From a virus: DNA of 27,041 nucleotides. The notes beneath the pieces are model-generated. The model was not told where the DNA came from. It did no database searches and worked only from the letters and a program-made list of their open reading frames with translations. Both the position numbers and the translations under genes were made by a program. Every line of letters starts with the position of its first letter. Position 1 is the first letter of the stretch. The stretch lies in IMG/VR virus record IMGVR_UViG_3300032326_001704, positions 1 to 27,041 of that record; one strand, given 5' to 3'. Shown one piece after another: positions 10,324 to 17,539 of this stretch.

Positions 10324-10590
10324 TTAAGTGTTAGAGTTAATATAACCTTTGGGAATCCAGTTCACAAACTTACCGCCACATGTGTTGCAAATCACTTTGC
10401 CTGCATGCGGTCCTGTTGGTTTGTTGACAATTTCCCAGTTATGGTCTTTATGGATGCCTAGATGCTGCCTTAGTTTTGTTCTTTGATTGTGCCATGCTTG
10501 ATCAAATCCAGTTTTTGGGTTGGTCCAATAAGGGTCGTTCAAAAACGCAGTGTCGCTTTTGTTGGTTTTATTGTAGTCAAGTTTTGTCAT
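10324..10590 (-). CDS. Small CxxC/His protein, putative zinc-binding
   Basis: This 88-aa protein has CNTCGGKFVNWIPKG near the C-terminus (Cys68, Cys71) preceded by several histidines (His43, His47, His50, His62), a pattern that could bind one zinc ion. The N-terminal half is polar and contains NDPYWTNPKTGFDQAWHNQR. Small phage proteins with a C-x-x-C-G-G-K-F/H-x-x-W ending are frequent in aquatic T4-like phages, but I know no function for them. It overlaps the GIY-YIG nuclease gene by an ATGA, which suggests stoichiometric co-expression. It is the last gene of the leftward operon. Confidence 0.65.
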   Translation of the reverse strand: MTKLDYNKTNKSDTAFLNDPYWTNPKTGFDQAWHNQRTKLRQHLGIHKDHNWEIVNKPTGPHAGKVICNTCGGKFVNWIPKGYINSNT

Positions 10591-11015
10591 AGTTTACCAA
10601 TGATGTGACTTCCGTGTACCCTAACCTGGATATGCCCGTTGTAATAATCTCGTGATTCTAATACTCGTCTTGAAAATTGTTCTCTTGCTTCAATGTAACT
10701 ACATTCTGATTTGGAGTTGCAATAATAAAGTATTTCTCTGGTGAAGTTTTCGGTGCCTAGTTTGATTACGTCTGCGGTTAATTCTGGGCTTGACCCATAG
10801 TACTCTCTCCAATCTGAGTCGATCTTTGATCGTATCTTCTTCCGCTTCTTTGTGCCGTTTTTTTGCTTTACAGTCTTGTATGTTGTTTTAGAAAATTTTG
10901 CTAATTTTTTGCCTATGTACTTGCGTCCAGTGAGATTATTTGTGATCAAGTAAACAAATCCCACACACTCTTCGGGCAACATCTCAATTGGGGTATCTTG
11001 ATATAGCCATGTCAT
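10587..11015 (-). CDS. GIY-YIG endonuclease
   Basis: This 142-aa protein carries the GIY-YIG nuclease signature: GFVYLITNNLTGRKYIGKK (residues ~19-37) gives the FVY and YIG strands. Supporting residues are a basic linker KKRKKIRSK, DWREYYGSS (~68-76), the likely metal-binding Glu109 in YIEAREQF, and a late YYN (124-126) matching the conserved Asn. It has no separate DNA-binding extension such as those of I-TevI-type intron endonucleases, so it is closer to a compact freestanding nuclease such as T4 endonuclease II (DenA) or Seg enzymes. Possible roles are host DNA degradation, mobile homing, or processing of recombination intermediates next to gp46/gp47. AAGGATAAA lies far upstream (about 17 bases), so its initiation signal is weak. 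Confidence 0.8.
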   Translation of the reverse strand: MTWLYQDTPIEMLPEECVGFVYLITNNLTGRKYIGKKLAKFSKTTYKTVKQKNGTKKRKKIRSKIDSDWREYYGSSPELTADVIKLGTENFTREILYYCNSKSECSYIEAREQFSRRVLESRDYYNGHIQVRVHGSHIIGKL

Positions 11016-11068: not shown

Positions 11069-11371
11069 TTAAATTTTTCGTTTTTCTATTAACAAATCGT
11101 CAGTACACCCGGTGCAACGAGACTTTTTGCAAGTGGTTGGGCTGGTAAAAATATCCCAGTTTGTGAATATATTTCCCAGCAAATCGTTGTTGCACAGAGC
11201 TGAGTACACATTGAAATTTTTATCAACGCTTATCCGCTTGGATCCAGCAGCACAAGCCCATCCCTGCCACTGGTCCAGATTGTTGTTGTGCATCCAGTTT
11301 GCACTGATACGAAACTCTTGCCCATTGTCTAGTGTGACCTTGCAATTGTAATATTGATGATCTTCAAACAT
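11069..11371 (-). CDS. SPASM-like auxiliary iron-sulfur domain, C-terminal half of a split radical SAM enzyme
   Basis: This 100-aa product makes no sense as a lone protein but has the cysteine spacing of a SPASM/twitch auxiliary cluster domain. It has GWACAAG (Cys40), a short strand pair ISVDKNFNVYSALC (Cys60), then TCKKSRCTGC (Cys81, 86, 89). In single-chain enzymes this domain follows the radical SAM barrel in the same polypeptide. Here its ATG overlaps the end of the barrel gene by 8 bases (ATGTTTGA). A stop lies just upstream in its own frame, so it cannot simply be a longer gene read from an earlier start. It is made either by reinitiation, as a separate subunit, or by a +1 shift at GTT-TGA. 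AGGA lies 13 bases upstream of the ATG. Confidence 0.7.
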   Translation of the reverse strand: MFEDHQYYNCKVTLDNGQEFRISANWMHNNNLDQWQGWACAAGSKRISVDKNFNVYSALCNNDLLGNIFTNWDIFTSPTTCKKSRCTGCTDDLLIEKRKI

Positions 11372-11990
11372 TGAGATTTAGTTTTCCTAAAAAAATTGGA
11401 TGTGTCCTAGTCTGAACACTGTAGTCAATTTGGTTGACTGTGTAGCTAATTTCATGCTGATCCAGCAACGCTGTGTAGATCGGAATGCGATCCCGGTTCC
11501 AGTACTCATCCATGACAACCACGTGTATGAATTTTGAGCTGTCAATGGTCTGTTTTAACTTTATGATCATATCAAAAAACTTTTTCTCGTCAATGTGCTC
11601 GGTGTGTACACTAAATGCAATATTGTCAGTCACTTTGAACATCTTGAAGTAGTAGTTGTAGTTGGCGCTACCGTTGGTGGTAATCATAACTTTGAACAGA
11701 TGCTGGTCATAATTTTGTCTAAGCCAAGAAAGAAACGGTAAAAAATATTTGTTGGTTGTGAGTTCACCGCCAGTGAATGCTATTTTATACTGTAAATTGA
11801 GATGTCGAGTCTTGGAAAAAATACTTTCCCAGGCCTGCTGCATGGTTTCAAGGCTGTGAGGCTTGCTGGTGTTGTCGTGCCACTCTGGACTGCAATACAT
11901 GCAGTCGTAGTTACAGCGAATACTCAATTGCCAGTTGATTGAAAAGTATTCTTCAGTTGGTACAACTTGTACAATTTGTGGATCGGTCAT
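11364..11990 (-). CDS. Radical SAM enzyme, barrel domain (third radical SAM gene, split from its SPASM domain)
   Basis: This 208-aa protein has the CxxxCxxC cluster motif as CNYDCMYC (Cys26, 30, 33), which binds the 4Fe-4S cluster that cleaves S-adenosylmethionine, and the SAM-binding FTGGELTTNK (residues ~72-81). An ITTNGSANYN strand follows. The partial TIM barrel ends at about residue 190 with YSVQTRTHPIFLGKL. It is distinct from the two paralogues upstream, which use CNAxCPxC. The downstream overlapping frame supplies the auxiliary cysteines. The gene overlaps gp46 by an ATGA. Radical SAM/SPASM enzymes modify peptides, proteins or small molecules. No precursor peptide is evident nearby, so the substrate is unknown. 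Confidence 0.88.
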   Translation of the reverse strand: MTDPQIVQVVPTEEYFSINWQLSIRCNYDCMYCSPEWHDNTSKPHSLETMQQAWESIFSKTRHLNLQYKIAFTGGELTTNKYFLPFLSWLRQNYDQHLFKVMITTNGSANYNYYFKMFKVTDNIAFSVHTEHIDEKKFFDMIIKLKQTIDSSKFIHVVVMDEYWNRDRIPIYTALLDQHEISYTVNQIDYSVQTRTHPIFLGKLNLNV

Positions 11991-13750
11991 GCTAGATCAA
12001 CATCCGTGTTGTAACTGGTAAAGCCGTTCTCTTTGATCACTTTGAGAATGTTCTCCACACGCCCGGCCAGTTCATCTCTGTGCGATACTAACCAAATACT
12101 CTTGTGACGCTCACGACTCATCTTCTTCAGCAGGGCCAAGGCATTCTCTACGCCTTGTGTGTCCAAGCCGTTGTCGATCAGTTCGTCAATGAACAACAAG
12201 TTGATGGGTGAATACAAACTTTCCCAAACATCACGGAATGCCCAACTCATGCTCAAGATCAGTCTATTGCGTTCACCACGTGATAGATTATCAAAGTCCA
12301 GTTCGCGACCCAATTCTTCAATGCTCACAGTCAAGTCGTTTTGGAACTTCACAGTGTGTGGCAAGCCAATGCGATCCAGGTAGTGTGTGAGTCTTGCATT
12401 CAAGTAACTCAAGTTCTGATCAATGATCTTCTTGCGAACAAAACTATCTTTACTTGTTAGCAGTTTGAGCAAGAAGTCTTGATGTTCTTGCAATCGAGTG
12501 AGTTCATTCAAGGCATCATATGACACAATCTGCAGGGCTTGCCCTTGCATGTCTGAAATTTGTTCTTCATAAGGATCTATGTCTGTGGATCTTGTGATCA
12601 ATTCTTTGCGCAGTGTTTCCACAGTGTTGCGATGATTCAGTGCCTGTTCTAACGAATCGTAAAACACAGTGGGTGCTGTGCCTAATGCGCCAATGTTAGC
12701 AATAGTATCTTCATGCCCTTGGCGCTGTGTATCGTTGGACAACAGTTGTAGTGCTGTTTCTTGCACTAGAGACTGTTTAGCTTGCTTTAGTTCATCTTGT
12801 TTGTCATCATGTAAGTCTTGACCGCACGAGTGACACTTGTGAGCATCCAGTGCTTCAATTTCTGTTTTGAGTTTGTCTAGCAGTTTGTTTAGTTTGACAT
12901 CATCTGAATCAATTTGACGAATGTACCGGTTGGCATCATCTATGGCTTTTTTCTTCACATGAAATGCTTCTAGATCTCTGTGTGCTTGAACTTCAGCGTC
13001 AATATCAATGTGTTCAAGATCAGCAATGGCCTGGCCTAGTTTGCCCACATCTTCATCACGCTTGGCTATCCAAAGACGTTGACGTTTGCGCAGGCTTTCG
13101 ATCTGTTCTTCAATGCGCTTGTTGGCTTCCTGCACAGCACGAATACGGAACTCTTCTGCCTGAATGGCATCTTTGGTTTGTTTGTTGAGTTCTTTGATTG
13201 CGTCAGCACGTTCACTCAGCAAGGTAATGCCCAACAACTGCTCAATGATAGTGCGCTGATCATTGGCCTTTAAACTCAAAAACGGTTCAGTGTAGGTGTT
13301 CAAGGCCAGCACATGTTTGAACATGTCGTGGCTCATGTTCATCACACGCTCGATAGCATCTTGTGTTTCTCGACTGTCGCCCTGCGCTTCGTCTTCGGCG
13401 GCTTTGTGTTCGTTGTTGATGTAAAAACGTAGCACATTGGGCTTGCGTCCACGTTCAATACGATAATCTTGCCCGTTGACAGAGAAGTCCAGGCTGACCA
13501 ACATGTTCTTGCTATTGGTCTTGTTTACTAGATTGTCTTTGCGAATGTTTGAAAGTGCTTGACCATACAAGGCATAACTTAGAGCGTTGATGATTGTGGT
13601 CTTGCCTGTGCCATTGCGCGAGCCGTCACCGCCTAGGTCCAAGTTTTCACCTAGTACTAATGTAAGATCATTTCGGTCAAAGTCAATGCCTTGAGTGGCC
13701 GCACCCACGCTCATGAAATTTTTAACAGTTAAGTTTTTAATTTGTATCAT
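11987..13750 (-). CDS. 46: Recombination nuclease ATPase subunit, gp46-like (SbcC/Rad50 family)
   Basis: This 587-aa protein has an N-terminal Walker A region GENLDLGGDGSRNGTGKTT (residues ~34-52), with a phage-typical insertion before the P-loop. Two coiled-coil arms flank a zinc hook CHSC (Cys306, Cys309). The C-terminal half holds the ABC signature LSRGERNRL (~489-497), Walker B INLLFIDELID (~516-526) and a switch histidine in VSHRDEL. T4 gp46 pairs with gp47 to process DNA ends for recombination-dependent replication and to degrade host DNA. The length matches T4 gp46 (560 aa). In T4 the 47 and 46 genes are adjacent, but here two radical SAM genes separate them. It overlaps both neighbours by ATGA. 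Confidence 0.95.
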   Translation of the reverse strand: MIQIKNLTVKNFMSVGAATQGIDFDRNDLTLVLGENLDLGGDGSRNGTGKTTIINALSYALYGQALSNIRKDNLVNKTNSKNMLVSLDFSVNGQDYRIERGRKPNVLRFYINNEHKAAEDEAQGDSRETQDAIERVMNMSHDMFKHVLALNTYTEPFLSLKANDQRTIIEQLLGITLLSERADAIKELNKQTKDAIQAEEFRIRAVQEANKRIEEQIESLRKRQRLWIAKRDEDVGKLGQAIADLEHIDIDAEVQAHRDLEAFHVKKKAIDDANRYIRQIDSDDVKLNKLLDKLKTEIEALDAHKCHSCGQDLHDDKQDELKQAKQSLVQETALQLLSNDTQRQGHEDTIANIGALGTAPTVFYDSLEQALNHRNTVETLRKELITRSTDIDPYEEQISDMQGQALQIVSYDALNELTRLQEHQDFLLKLLTSKDSFVRKKIIDQNLSYLNARLTHYLDRIGLPHTVKFQNDLTVSIEELGRELDFDNLSRGERNRLILSMSWAFRDVWESLYSPINLLFIDELIDNGLDTQGVENALALLKKMSRERHKSIWLVSHRDELAGRVENILKVIKENGFTSYNTDVDLA

Positions 13751-14727
13751 TGTTTAGTGCCTGAGCATTGTTGTAAGCAAACTGGATTTGGACGATTAAC
13801 AAAACTAGCAGGATACCGTTTTTGCCACAAATCGCTGTTGATAATATCTTGTAAGTTATTATTATAGAGGTTTATTTGATCAAAGTCTATGTCCAATATC
13901 TTCTTAAAGTGGTGATTGATCAGCAAAGACTGTGTTTGGTGTTGTGCCTGATGCCATCCCATGAGCCAACAACAGGGCCATACAGTTCCGTCGGCATAGA
14001 TTGATATCCATCCAATTTGTTGACTGCGACATTTGATATTGTAATCTGACTCAGCAACACGCTTGGTAAGACTATTGGACGAGCTTTTGAAGCTAACTTC
14101 AGCATTGATGGTTGTCAAGTCTTGATTGTATCGTTGAACTGGCAAATTTGATTCTTGCTCAAACCGATCTTGGTACAGCACAAAAAATCTAGAAAATCCT
14201 AGATCATTGGCTAGTTGTTGTGCCTGCTCAATTTGATGTGCATTGTGTTCAAACAAAATAAACTGCCACTCTGCTCGACCGCCACCTTTGATAAATGCCT
14301 TGGCGTTTTCTATTATTTTGTGATAATCAGTCCCAACACGATAGATTGAATGTGTGTCGGCCAAGCCATCAATGCCAAACACAACTTTGTTTTGTGGCTG
14401 ACTCAGCAACAAGCCAAATTTTTCCCACCAAGCAGTGCTTCTCAAAGAACCATTGGTATTGATAGTAATACTAGCAGAACTGTGTGTTACACACCAATCT
14501 ATTATTTCAAAAATATCAGGATGCATTAGATTGTCGCCTGTATTGCCATTGAAATTTATTGATTTTACCGTGCGCCACAAGTCCAAAGATGTATTAGACA
14601 CTACCCGGTTCCAGTCAAGTATATCGTTGGTACGCATATTTTGCCCCCGCAAACATAACGGGCATTTGGCATTGCAGTTGTTGATACTTTCAATCTCAAT
14701 GGTTGTTATGTCAGTTAGTTCAAACAT
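13747..14727 (-). CDS. Radical SAM / SPASM-type protein B
   Basis: This is a 326-aa protein from the ATG at 14727. A longer start at 14781 exists but would overlap the previous gene by 46 bases, and 14727 falls 8 bases after that gene's stop. The cluster motif is CNAKCPLC (Cys18, 22, 25). A conserved block with ITINTNGSLRSTAWWEKFG and FGIDGLADTHSIYRVGTDYH follows at ~90-145, then GGGRAEWQFI and HNAHQI. The C-terminal part has a SPASM-like pattern: IKCRSQQIGWISIYADGTVW then PCCW, ending NPVCLQQC. It is a clear paralogue of the adjacent protein A. The enzyme should bind one SAM-cleaving and at least one auxiliary cluster. Substrate unknown. It ends in an ATGA overlap with gp46. Confidence 0.88.
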   Translation of the reverse strand: MFELTDITTIEIESINNCNAKCPLCLRGQNMRTNDILDWNRVVSNTSLDLWRTVKSINFNGNTGDNLMHPDIFEIIDWCVTHSSASITINTNGSLRSTAWWEKFGLLLSQPQNKVVFGIDGLADTHSIYRVGTDYHKIIENAKAFIKGGGRAEWQFILFEHNAHQIEQAQQLANDLGFSRFFVLYQDRFEQESNLPVQRYNQDLTTINAEVSFKSSSNSLTKRVAESDYNIKCRSQQIGWISIYADGTVWPCCWLMGWHQAQHQTQSLLINHHFKKILDIDFDQINLYNNNLQDIINSDLWQKRYPASFVNRPNPVCLQQCSGTKQ

Positions 14728-14735
14728 ACTGTTTT

Positions 14736-15617
14736 TCAATGATGCACTAATTTTACGCCATTGCCACAATTGGTCAGGCACAAGGGATGAGGGCGAGAAA
14801 TAATTTCGTTTTCAATATCAGGCAATACATCTGAGTCAGCGGTTCGATGCACATTTAGATAACAGCAAGAACTTATTTTTCCGTTGGCGTTTAGATACAC
14901 AGATTTTTTTGCTAGATGTCTGCAGTCAGACAATTTAAGACTATTGCGTTCGGGATTTAAATGATAGGTATTTGTACGATCGCTTCTGCTCCATGGTTGA
15001 AATTCTATTGGTTGTCCAGTTTGCCAGTGGCGGGCACTTATAGTTTCTCGTACACTGGTTACAAATTTAAATTTTTTAAAACCCATCTTTTGACTCAATC
15101 GTATACAGTCTTTGATTTGGTGTTCATTGTGTGCCCAAGGAATAAACTGCCATGTAGCATAACCGCCAGCAGATATAAACGCCTGGGCATTGGCAACAGT
15201 TTTGTCAAAGTCTGTACCTTGACGATATATTTCATGCACACCCTTAAGACCATCTAAACAAAACCATACATCGTGATTCAAATCTTTTAATAGAGTTCCT
15301 AGGTCACTCCACCATTGAGGGGAACGTATGCCGCCGTGTGTGTGGATTTGAATTTTACTTGCGTACTTTATTGCTAGATCAATGTGCTCTAACACATTAT
15401 TAGCAGCCATGGTATCTCCGTAGGTACCACTAAATTGTATGGTTTCTAAGTTGGGAAGTTTTTTTAAAACTTCTTCAAATCTTTCTGTGGACAGATCTTC
15501 AACCACTAGGTTAGGATTAAGTTGGTACCCACCTTGATTGCGACCGCAACCAGGACACCAAGCATTGCACTTGGTTGAGTTTTCTACTTGTAACCATGTG
15601 GCATCTGACAGAATCAT
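14736..15617 (-). CDS. Radical SAM / SPASM-type protein A
   Basis: This 293-aa protein has CNAWCPGC (Cys17, 21, 24) and the same backbone as protein B: QFSGTYGD, IQIHTHGGIRSPQWWSDLG, FCLDGLKGVHEIYRQGTDF, AGGYATWQFI and HNEHQI in the same order. The C-terminus has DCRHLAKKSVYLNANG, SSCCYLN and HPLCLTNC, the same Cys layout as B. The Gly-Gly-Glu strand usual in radical SAM enzymes is replaced by SGTYGD here and by NGNTGD in B. It follows gp47 with an ATGA overlap and precedes B by 8 bases. It most likely works together with B, either as two steps or as a heterodimer (inference). Confidence 0.88.
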   Translation of the reverse strand: MILSDATWLQVENSTKCNAWCPGCGRNQGGYQLNPNLVVEDLSTERFEEVLKKLPNLETIQFSGTYGDTMAANNVLEHIDLAIKYASKIQIHTHGGIRSPQWWSDLGTLLKDLNHDVWFCLDGLKGVHEIYRQGTDFDKTVANAQAFISAGGYATWQFIPWAHNEHQIKDCIRLSQKMGFKKFKFVTSVRETISARHWQTGQPIEFQPWSRSDRTNTYHLNPERNSLKLSDCRHLAKKSVYLNANGKISSCCYLNVHRTADSDVLPDIENEIISRPHPLCLTNCGNGVKLVHH

Positions 15618-16630
15618 AAGGTCTGGTAAATTTTTAACAGTAGTTTATTGTCGTAGAATTCTGATTCAATGTTGGTGATCTGATCCGTGACAATTTGATC
15701 CACTGATTCAAATTTGACTTCACCGGGAGCCATGTCTGTGTCCACTGCGGAGTTCTTGTTGGGTATCAGGGCCATCTCTCGGAGACCATATTCTCGGATA
15801 TAGGTTTCTTTGATGAAGTTGGCTTCCTCGTACGAAATTTCAATGTCTAACTGCACACGCACATGCATGCCAGCGGCAAGTAAAGTAGGTGCGTTGTCAA
15901 TGATACTGGCCAGACCCAGCACACGATAGCGGGGTTGATCAGGCCAGGCATGAAACTCTGGCTCCTTGCCCCATTCTAGGATCATCATGCCACGTTCATC
16001 ATCACCAGCATCGGCATAGTTGTGCGGAAAGCAGTTGCCAATGTAGGTAATGTTTTTCTTGGTCTGACGTTTGTGAAAGTGCCCAGTAAACACATGCTCA
16101 AAGTTGTTGAAGTCTTCTCTGCGTACCTCACCGTGGTCCGGCATTTCTACCATGGCGTTCATCATGTATCCAGGCAGTTCAAAGTGCCCAAACATGTACT
16201 TGCCTTTCAGTTTGGGTATGCGTTTATGATCATCACCCACAAGCCAAGGTGCAATAACCACATCGTCACTGCAAAACCAATCGTTGCAAATTTCCACATT
16301 AGGGAGGTGCCGAGCCCACTCAACACTTTGTATATCTCGCTTGTCGCGATAGTACAAATCGTGATTGCCAGGAATGAAATAAACACGTTCAAAGTTTGCA
16401 TTCATGTGCTCCAGAGCTCGCAAGCTGTAGTTCAGCGTGACAATATTTAAGCTGGCACGGTTGTTGTGCCAGTCGCCCAAGAACAAACAGGTTTCACAGC
16501 CTTCGGCTCGGGCTTTGGCAGTTGCCCATTTTATAAAATTCATACAGTCCTCATTGTGTTGAGTGCTGTTAGATTTTAATCCAAAGTGAATGTCAGTGAA
16601 GACTGCGGCTTTTTTAAATAGATTACTCAT
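15614..16630 (-). CDS. 47: Recombination nuclease subunit, gp47-like (SbcD/Mre11 family)
   Basis: This 338-aa protein has the same length as T4 gp47 (339 aa) and all the metallophosphoesterase motifs: FTDIHFG (Asp13, His15), LGDWHN (Asp53, His55), PGNHD (Asn89-Asp91), FGHFE (His149) and TGHFHKRQ (His184, His186). These residues coordinate two manganese ions for nuclease activity. With gp46 it forms an Mre11-Rad50 type complex for end resection. The gene lies 12 bases after gp55 and has only a poor ribosome binding site (AATAGATAG). Its stop overlaps the start of radical SAM gene A by ATGA, so translation of the radical SAM cassette should be tied to gp47. Confidence 0.95.
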   Translation of the reverse strand: MSNLFKKAAVFTDIHFGLKSNSTQHNEDCMNFIKWATAKARAEGCETCLFLGDWHNNRASLNIVTLNYSLRALEHMNANFERVYFIPGNHDLYYRDKRDIQSVEWARHLPNVEICNDWFCSDDVVIAPWLVGDDHKRIPKLKGKYMFGHFELPGYMMNAMVEMPDHGEVRREDFNNFEHVFTGHFHKRQTKKNITYIGNCFPHNYADAGDDERGMMILEWGKEPEFHAWPDQPRYRVLGLASIIDNAPTLLAAGMHVRVQLDIEISYEEANFIKETYIREYGLREMALIPNKNSAVDTDMAPGEVKFESVDQIVTDQITNIESEFYDNKLLLKIYQTL

Positions 16631-16642
16631 CTATCTATTATA

Positions 16643-17539
16643 CTACTCATCAAGACTGCTTACAACCGGTCCGGACATGGCAGCCATCGAATGTTTGCCA
16701 GAGTTCTGACGTGTCCATGAAGGGTTCAGTCCGTTCATTTCCAAAATGTCATCTCTGATGTTTTGATTTTTCTTTTCAATGTTGAGAATTCGTGTAAAGC
16801 TGTTTGTGATCGCCGCAGTGTAGTAAGCAAATGGATTTTGACTCTTAGACTCATCGAATTGAAGACCAATCTGCGATAGTTGAAGCAGGGCCTGTCCGCG
16901 CATTTCTTCGTTGTAGGTGTATCCACGCCAGTTGCTCCTTGTGGCATATCTTTCGCATAATTTCATAAACATCAAGGCCAGTTTCTTGGTCATGTCCCCG
17001 TGATCTTTGGAGAATTCGCCTGTGGCCAAATCGCCCTTCCAATGCGAGCGCCCTACTATGTACGGCTTCTTTTCTTCGTCTATGCGATAGTGCTCAAACG
17101 GTGGAAAGTTCACACGCACATGATTCATGTCTAGCACAGGAACATCCACAATGTCTGCAAGTGGGTCATCTTCTACCACATCATCAAGATCTAAAATTTC
17201 CTCTAACTTTCGCTTTTTGGCTTCGGCCTTGGTAATTTTCTTGGGTGCTTTGGGAATGTGATCCCAGCAAGTGATACGGAACACAATTTCGGTGTTGGGT
17301 ATCTTTTTAGGATCAACAATAGTGCCCTCACGCTTGAGTCGATCCGCTCGGTTACGTCTTGCTTCGGCAATGGTACGCTGATTGATCTTGTCTATTGACG
17401 GCAAAATGATATCAAATTGATGATCGTTTACTCTGTCTTGGAACCAGCAGTAGTTGTTTTTACTGAGGTGAATTTCTTTTAAAATATCTCTGTTGTTGAG
17501 ATAATTGACACGAGGTGCCGCCTTGGGTAATAAAGTCAT
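16643..17539 (-). CDS. 55: Late-transcription sigma factor, gp55-like, with long N-terminal extension
   Basis: This 298-aa protein's C-terminal ~130 residues contain the gp55 core: KKLALMFMKLCERYATRSNW (~190-209), YNEEMRGQALLQLSQIGLQF and FAYYTAAITNSFTRILNIEK (~240-263), a compact sigma region-2-like domain that recognises the TATAAATA box. T4 gp55 is only 185 aa. Here ~150 additional N-terminal residues include a basic AEARRNRADRLKREG region and an acidic DLDDVVEDDPLADIVD stretch. In T4-like phages gp55 binds host RNA polymerase and the gp33/gp45 apparatus. It is the first gene after the promoter at 17567-17594. AGGAG lies 11 bases before the ATG. Confidence 0.9.
   Translation of the reverse strand: MTLLPKAAPRVNYLNNRDILKEIHLSKNNYCWFQDRVNDHQFDIILPSIDKINQRTIAEARRNRADRLKREGTIVDPKKIPNTEIVFRITCWDHIPKAPKKITKAEAKKRKLEEILDLDDVVEDDPLADIVDVPVLDMNHVRVNFPPFEHYRIDEEKKPYIVGRSHWKGDLATGEFSKDHGDMTKKLALMFMKLCERYATRSNWRGYTYNEEMRGQALLQLSQIGLQFDESKSQNPFAYYTAAITNSFTRILNIEKKNQNIRDDILEMNGLNPSWTRQNSGKHSMAAMSGPVVSSLDE

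Follow-up and report, generated by a model that had tools for sequence, protein, structure and literature searches.

The DNA analysed here, referred to below as the window, is an IMG/VR virus record of 27,041 bases. It carries a phage operon for the recombination nuclease gp47-gp46 in which three divergent radical S-adenosylmethionine (SAM) enzymes are encoded: A and B between gp47 and gp46, and C after gp46, where it overlaps a small open reading frame (ORF), D. We propose that the segment running from the sigma factor gene through gp47 and gp46 to a GIY-YIG gene acts as a hot-spot for insertions, which enter it at three slots, and that A, B and the C-D pair are its exchangeable cargo. C and D would be two subunits of the third enzyme. 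The enzymes would most likely serve to tailor a small molecule, sugar-like or otherwise, in concert with radical SAM, carbamoyltransferase, amidinotransferase and sugar enzymes encoded throughout the genome. Taken whole, this is the best explanation of the data, and we put its probability at about 0.62.

Insertion slots around gp47 and gp46

ORF and profile annotation of the minus strand gives the order sigma, gp47, A, B, gp46, C, D and the GIY-YIG gene. The operon opens with a gp55-like late sigma factor (16643-17539; PHROG_12791, 1.3e-75), followed by gp47, the SbcD/Mre11-like nuclease subunit (15614-16630; PHROG_100, 2.9e-64; 49% to PA5oct gp47), A (14736-15617), B (13747-14727), SbcC/Rad50-like gp46 (11987-13750; PHROG_77, 2.4e-98), C (11364-11990) and D (11069-11371), all on the minus strand. 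The right border of the last slot, also on this strand, is a SegE-like GIY-YIG endonuclease gene (10587-11015; PF19835, 5.2e-33), a border that was conserved in our survey. By their PHROG matches, the identities of gp47 and gp46 are certain. The closest relatives of the window's gp47 come from jumbo phages such as PA5oct, 121Q and Atu_ph07, and the PHROG matches place sigma, gp47 and gp46 in the order found in T4, 121Q and PA5oct. An earlier note on this DNA had described A and B between gp47 and gp46 and C after gp46, which the CxxxCxxC motifs and Pfam matches bear out, and had reported ATGA overlaps at the gp47/A, B/gp46 and gp46/C joints, all three of which are present in the sequence; A and B lie 8 bases apart. 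Its gene list stands for A, B and C, but D was overlooked. Its premise that genes 47 and 46 are kept strictly side by side fails even in T4, which has 46.1 and 46.2 between 46 and 47, and alpha-gt and the homing endonuclease gene mobB between 47 and 55. In PA5oct and 121Q, gp47 and gp46 are adjacent with no insert.

We surveyed 79 loci found with gp47 for the contents of three slots, sigma/gp47, gp47/gp46 and gp46/GIY. Inserts were present in 23/74, 48/77 and 42/59 loci, respectively, and radical SAM genes in 6, 9 and 35. Other cargo included sulfotransferases, DUF6071 proteins, methyltransferases, a 2-oxoglutarate oxygenase, an AMP-binding enzyme, TctC and, identified by eye, GIY-YIG-like genes. 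The contents of the gp47/gp46 slot require at least 41 changes among four states on a tree of 93 gp47 proteins, compared with a mean of 46 when shuffled. Four loci with very similar gp47 (L006, L007, L097 and L177) illustrate the turnover, their slots holding A, A, other cargo and nothing, respectively. In the gp47-gp46 intervals, which the earlier note had thought worth surveying, radical SAM genes are one of several cargo types. We found no paper in the open-licence literature that describes radical SAM genes in 47-46 or UvsX-UvsY intervals.

The C-D pair is also found elsewhere. Other T4-like phages carry it after UvsX, in the order gp32-UvsX-C-D-UvsY; among 76 loci chosen by UvsY, a radical SAM gene lies between UvsX and UvsY in 22, and C-D in 2. 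On the C tree the window copy falls within a clade of six rows (100/96) that mixes gp46 and UvsX contexts, and C-D has therefore moved between loci and lineages. A search of 84,980 species with two peptide patterns, which was not exhaustive, gave no close bacterial or archaeal relative of C, and returned four distant radical SAM proteins at 26-32%. A further cassette recurs between gp32 and UvsX (L032:3298-6918 and L064:3272-6948), with five genes in the order: a 202-217-residue protein that is sulfotransferase-like by eye, a radical SAM protein of about 300 residues, a 154-157-residue protein without assignment, a short-chain-dehydrogenase-like protein, and a SPASM radical SAM protein of about 384 residues. 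A weak short-chain dehydrogenase match also occurs at the C-terminal end of a 572-residue protein with an N-terminal radical SAM domain (L004:12497-14212).

The earlier note had read the tight overlaps as suggesting co-expression with the nuclease at defined ratios; in a rival explanation along these lines, the enzymes would act on gp46, gp47 or phage DNA. The overlaps are real, A adjoins gp47 in 19/100 loci, and C-D adjoins two recombination modules, gp46/47 and UvsX/UvsY. However, the ATGA joint at the gp47 end is present in 22/30 empty slots and in 31/40 slots with unrelated cargo; because empty slots have it as often, the overlap is a property of the site and not evidence of joint function. 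Slot content turns over almost randomly on the gp47 tree, and the relatives PA5oct and 121Q do without any gp47-gp46 insert. Co-expression with the nuclease at set ratios is thus unsupported, and we consider a functional link to the nuclease very unlikely. Under the hot-spot explanation, A, B and C-D would be expressed with their neighbours only through sharing the operon. An implication is that overlap-coupled gene order in phages need not signify common function, and that the hot-spot is a place to seek new phage chemistry.

A scan of the operon for promoters and terminators revealed no clear signal within it; promoter-like sites numbered 27, with 17 expected. We note also that the best PHROG for the GIY-YIG gene is PHROG_447, whose label, 'NAD synthetase', looks like a misannotation, and that this gene shares an ATGA overlap with an 88-residue, cysteine-containing ORF (10324-10590) without a family match.

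The enzymes A and B and the C-D pair

A, B and C are divergent radical SAM members whose assignment is supported by motif and fold rather than by the curated Pfam cut-off. The cut-off for PF04055 (Radical_SAM) is 29.5 bits, and all three fall under it (A, 16.8; B, 29.0; C, 25.7 bits); B exceeds the Pfam SPASM cut-off. The CxxxCxxC motif shows no variation among 76 C-D pairs or within the B set, and its conservation in the A set is 90% or higher. Across 17 homologues, A combines this motif with four conserved C-terminal cysteines, and four cysteines suited to one auxiliary [4Fe-4S] cluster are likewise conserved in B and D, so that a twitch-type auxiliary cluster is predicted in A, B and D. For B, an ATG start is preferred, the listed GTG start at 14781 being less likely. 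AlphaFold2 models of B and of a C-D homologue both contain a partial (beta/alpha)6 barrel, and the best Foldseek matches listed for the two models are radical SAM proteins. The earlier note's reading of these proteins as radical SAM enzymes that carry auxiliary domains is thus borne out, and none of them matches a characterised class in the profile, PDB and fold searches made. When the PDB was searched by sequence for function, A gave no usable match, B only general radical SAM proteins, and a fused C homologue none. Barrel and twitch (in B, SPASM/twitch) domain lie in a single polypeptide in A and B, which would be one-chain twitch-type enzymes, but not in C-D.

C holds CxxxCxxC and GGE motifs and, from profiles and alignment to a fused homologue, lacks an auxiliary domain; D, of 100 residues, starts inside C and has no Pfam or PHROG match. 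Searching IMG/VR with C gave 80 loci, and C and D were counted over all loci and then made non-redundant, leaving 65 split pairs, three fused single ORFs and one contig end (68 informative copies). Among these non-redundant loci, C never occurs without D, nor D without C. C keeps GGE besides CxxxCxxC in the 76 C-D pairs, and the four D cysteines in the twitch pattern are kept in 73-76 of the 76. The fused forms (L004/L005, 333 residues; L119; L120) carry both parts in one ORF: the window's C shares homology with the first ~205 residues of the L005 protein, and D with the last ~95 residues of the fused proteins. D therefore corresponds to the C-terminal domain of the C enzyme, that is, to a separate subunit predicted to hold its auxiliary Fe-S cluster. 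An AlphaFold2 model of the fused homologue (predicted local distance difference test (pLDDT) 85; predicted template modelling score 0.84) has a complete six-stranded barrel at residues 17-188, a low-confidence linker at about 200-237 and a confident twitch domain at 241-333; the gene split coincides with the linker.

An assembly error or a pseudogene was considered as the source of the split and rejected: the start codon and the cysteines are preserved in 65 distinct copies, and the frame in 62 of them. The two parts also stand as separate entries in BFVD, one a 206-residue protein (49% to the C part) and the other a 100-residue 'uncharacterized' protein (root-mean-square deviation 1.2) that, judging from its length and aligned length, is presumably the D-domain match. 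Current annotation hides the enzyme, because D-type proteins appear in databases under the label 'uncharacterized' and those of the C type as no more than radical SAM cores.

How would D be translated? In the window, its ATG (11369-11371) lies in ATGTTTGA, where D overlaps the C stop (11364-11366), and a Shine-Dalgarno-like AGGA is upstream at 11385-11388 (all on the minus strand). In 65/65 split pairs a D-frame start codon lies at the junction, near the C stop (46 TTG, 19 ATG); as a control, six-codon windows taken from other parts of C in that frame hold a start codon 30% of the time. AGG or GGA is found upstream in 52/65 pairs. At the junction, leucine is encoded by CTT 36 times, whereas CTT makes up only 10% of the leucine codons in the rest of C. 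The codon that follows this leucine has G as its first base in every case, irrespective of the amino acid specified, as expected from a conserved TTG start.

A different mechanism, programmed +1 ribosomal frameshifting at a conserved AAT-CTT-G, would yield a C-D fusion plus some free C. It would fit the +1 relation of D to C in 62/65 pairs, the unusual conservation of the junction DNA, and the D-frame stop that usually lies just upstream. However, where the TTG has been lost (CTC or CTA in the window, L031 and L058) and the CTTG with it, an ATG is found 3 bases further along; TAT in place of CTT itself creates an ATG in L087, L069 and L094; and in L042 and L043, D is in the other frame yet the TTG start is retained. 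The C stop drifts from -26 to +2 around the D start, while the distance from the start to the D domain is mostly constant. Because the start codon is conserved in every pair, the codon usage is biased, and ATG appears where TTG is lost, independent initiation is favoured and frameshifting seems distinctly unlikely. D is probably initiated independently, and would be translated from its own start codon within the 3′ end of C.

C would contribute the barrel and the SAM-cleaving cluster, D the auxiliary cluster, and the two would come together as in the fused enzyme. Cleavage of SAM by the barrel cluster would give a 5′-deoxyadenosyl radical, which would abstract hydrogen from the substrate; the cluster in D would position the substrate or accept the electron. 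We found no description of a split twitch radical SAM enzyme in the open-licence literature, and a conserved one appears to be new. If the enzyme does consist of two chains, its auxiliary cluster could be taken away, exchanged or titrated with the cysteines left intact, which would allow a direct test of what such a cluster does.

Possible substrates

The fold neighbours of the C-D homologue are BlsE, SuiB, MoaA, viperin, SkfB, SpeY and BtrN (Foldseek, template modelling (TM) score to the query 0.26-0.54), and those of the B model (pLDDT 79) are SuiB, SkfB, BlsE and AnSME (TM 0.53-0.58). C scores only 27.1 bits against the 260-bit cut-off of the QueE family (TIGR03963), and no queuosine-pathway genes are among the annotated window neighbours. 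The earlier note's statement that QueE neighbours and a precursor peptide are absent holds for the annotated neighbours of A-D and, in view of the gene spacing, for small ORFs between them.

Two narrower functions can be weighed against small-molecule tailoring. Modification of the RiPP type (ribosomally synthesized and post-translationally modified peptides), with A, B or C-D acting on a peptide or virion protein encoded elsewhere, would suit the closeness of the B fold to the RiPP maturases SuiB and SkfB, and a radical SAM gene of about 435 residues repeatedly precedes a possible substrate protein of about 150-170 residues in other loci (L011, L069, L222 and L236). However, no precursor adjoins A-D, where genes overlap or abut and leave no room for a small ORF, and the likeness to SuiB and SkfB is that of general SPASM/twitch architecture (16% identity); we regard this function as unlikely. 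Alternatively, C-D could be a phage viperin-like enzyme making a modified nucleotide such as ddhCTP, since viperin_w_prok is the best NCBIfam profile for C (3.8e-15) and viperins are among the Foldseek matches of the C-D homologue. The viperin scores are far under the family cut-offs (55.8 bits against 180 for NF038283; 17.0 against 450 for TIGR04278), the profile match spans only C residues 17-134, and BlsE, SuiB and MoaA outrank viperin in the fold search. Viperins are known as single chains without an auxiliary cluster, and C is always accompanied by D. A viperin-like function is therefore highly improbable.

The ~435-residue radical SAM gene just mentioned (L011:11571-13300, L069:2470-4220, L222 and L236; 494 residues in L207) is followed by a ~150-170-residue c38-type protein without a Pfam match, a candidate substrate or partner of the preceding enzyme.

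Tailoring of a sugar-like molecule is favoured because carbamoyltransferases, amidinotransferases and sugar enzymes recur beside radical SAM genes. PF04055 matches number 13-19 on each of the jumbo-phage contigs examined, five related ones of 317-354 kb and another of 316 kb. The jumbo-phage contigs carry conserved multi-radical-SAM clusters, which belong to the N_Twi_rSAM type where this was tested and are accompanied by a carbamoyltransferase and in some cases an amidinotransferase. L328-L335 have conserved clusters, with about five consecutive radical SAM genes in most, alongside a carbamoyltransferase, genes that are glycosyltransferase-like by eye and unnamed genes, and in some cases an amidinotransferase or GDP-sugar genes; the L335 cluster includes GDP-mannose dehydratase, an epimerase and a heptose-kinase-like GHMP kinase, and the L333 cluster shares a contig with L004, the window's close relative (A 91% identical). 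Radical SAM genes accompany an amidinotransferase in Campylobacter phages, and a carbamoyltransferase and an aminotransferase in phage Mosig.

Several points weigh against the overall explanation. The sugar link comes from relatives and not from the window, in whose annotated stretch we identified no gene for a carbamoyltransferase, an amidinotransferase or a sugar enzyme, and no profile or fold match names a substrate (TM below 0.6 throughout). The binding of D to C, or to a cluster, is a prediction, as are C-D assembly, catalysis and substrate; the genes, motifs, split, start-codon conservation and slot turnover are read directly from the DNA. Finally, A occupies the gp47/gp46 slot in 19 of the 100 loci noted above, some of which were selected through A itself. 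Occurrences of A cluster on the gp47 tree (11 changes, with 15 when shuffled), so that A is more stable than other cargo.

A bolder proposal is that C-D is the first natural radical SAM enzyme known to function as a barrel and a separable auxiliary-cluster subunit, with D read from a mostly TTG start, and that phages combine 13-19 enzymes of this kind with amidino- and carbamoyltransferases in making a novel modified sugar or nucleoside that decorates phage DNA, the virion or the host surface. In this full form we consider it unlikely.

Relation to known systems

Phages with many radical SAM genes are already known. The Campylobacter phages CP220 and CPt10 have 11-12, with an amidinotransferase (Timms 2010, PMC2853527), and a marine viral genome has 12 (PMC5332604), fewer in both cases than the 13-19 found here. 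CP220, CPt10 and F379 encode distant homologues of A, B and C; their radical SAM module lies, as far as read, outside the gp47-gp46 slots, and the CP220 homologue of C, CPT_0081, is one fused gene of 289 residues, unlike the split C-D. F379_100 (L111:7008-7910), whose twitch part is unannotated in another frame, was considered as a further natural split and rejected, being broken by a frameshift relative to the intact CPT_0081.

Among characterised enzymes, the twitch/SPASM proteins BlsE, SpeY, BtrN, AbmM, MoaA and SuiB resemble A-D in joining a CxxxCxxC barrel to an auxiliary cluster domain, with identities of at most 20% in fold alignments. They are single chains, whereas the barrel and twitch of C-D are encoded by separate overlapping genes. 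N_Twi_rSAM proteins (NF033640), which where tested account for most of the clusters in the related jumbo phages, also combine radical SAM and twitch domains, but their Fe-S domain precedes the barrel, and A, B and C fall far below the cut-off of that family. The T4 55-47-46 region has the sigma-47-46 order of the window with extra genes in both gaps, none of them a radical SAM gene.

A second split pair is found in a cultured virus, Pelagibacter phage Mosig EXVC030M, where a barrel protein (Mosig_00084, 211 residues) and a twitch-like protein with twitch-type cysteines (Mosig_00085, 112 residues) overlap as ATGGCTAA, next to aminotransferase, carbamoyltransferase and methyltransferase genes. 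Their annotations go no further than 'molybdenum cofactor biosynthesis enzyme' for the first and 'hypothetical' for the second. Because Mosig_00084 matches B rather than C, the Mosig pair represents a split in another subfamily.

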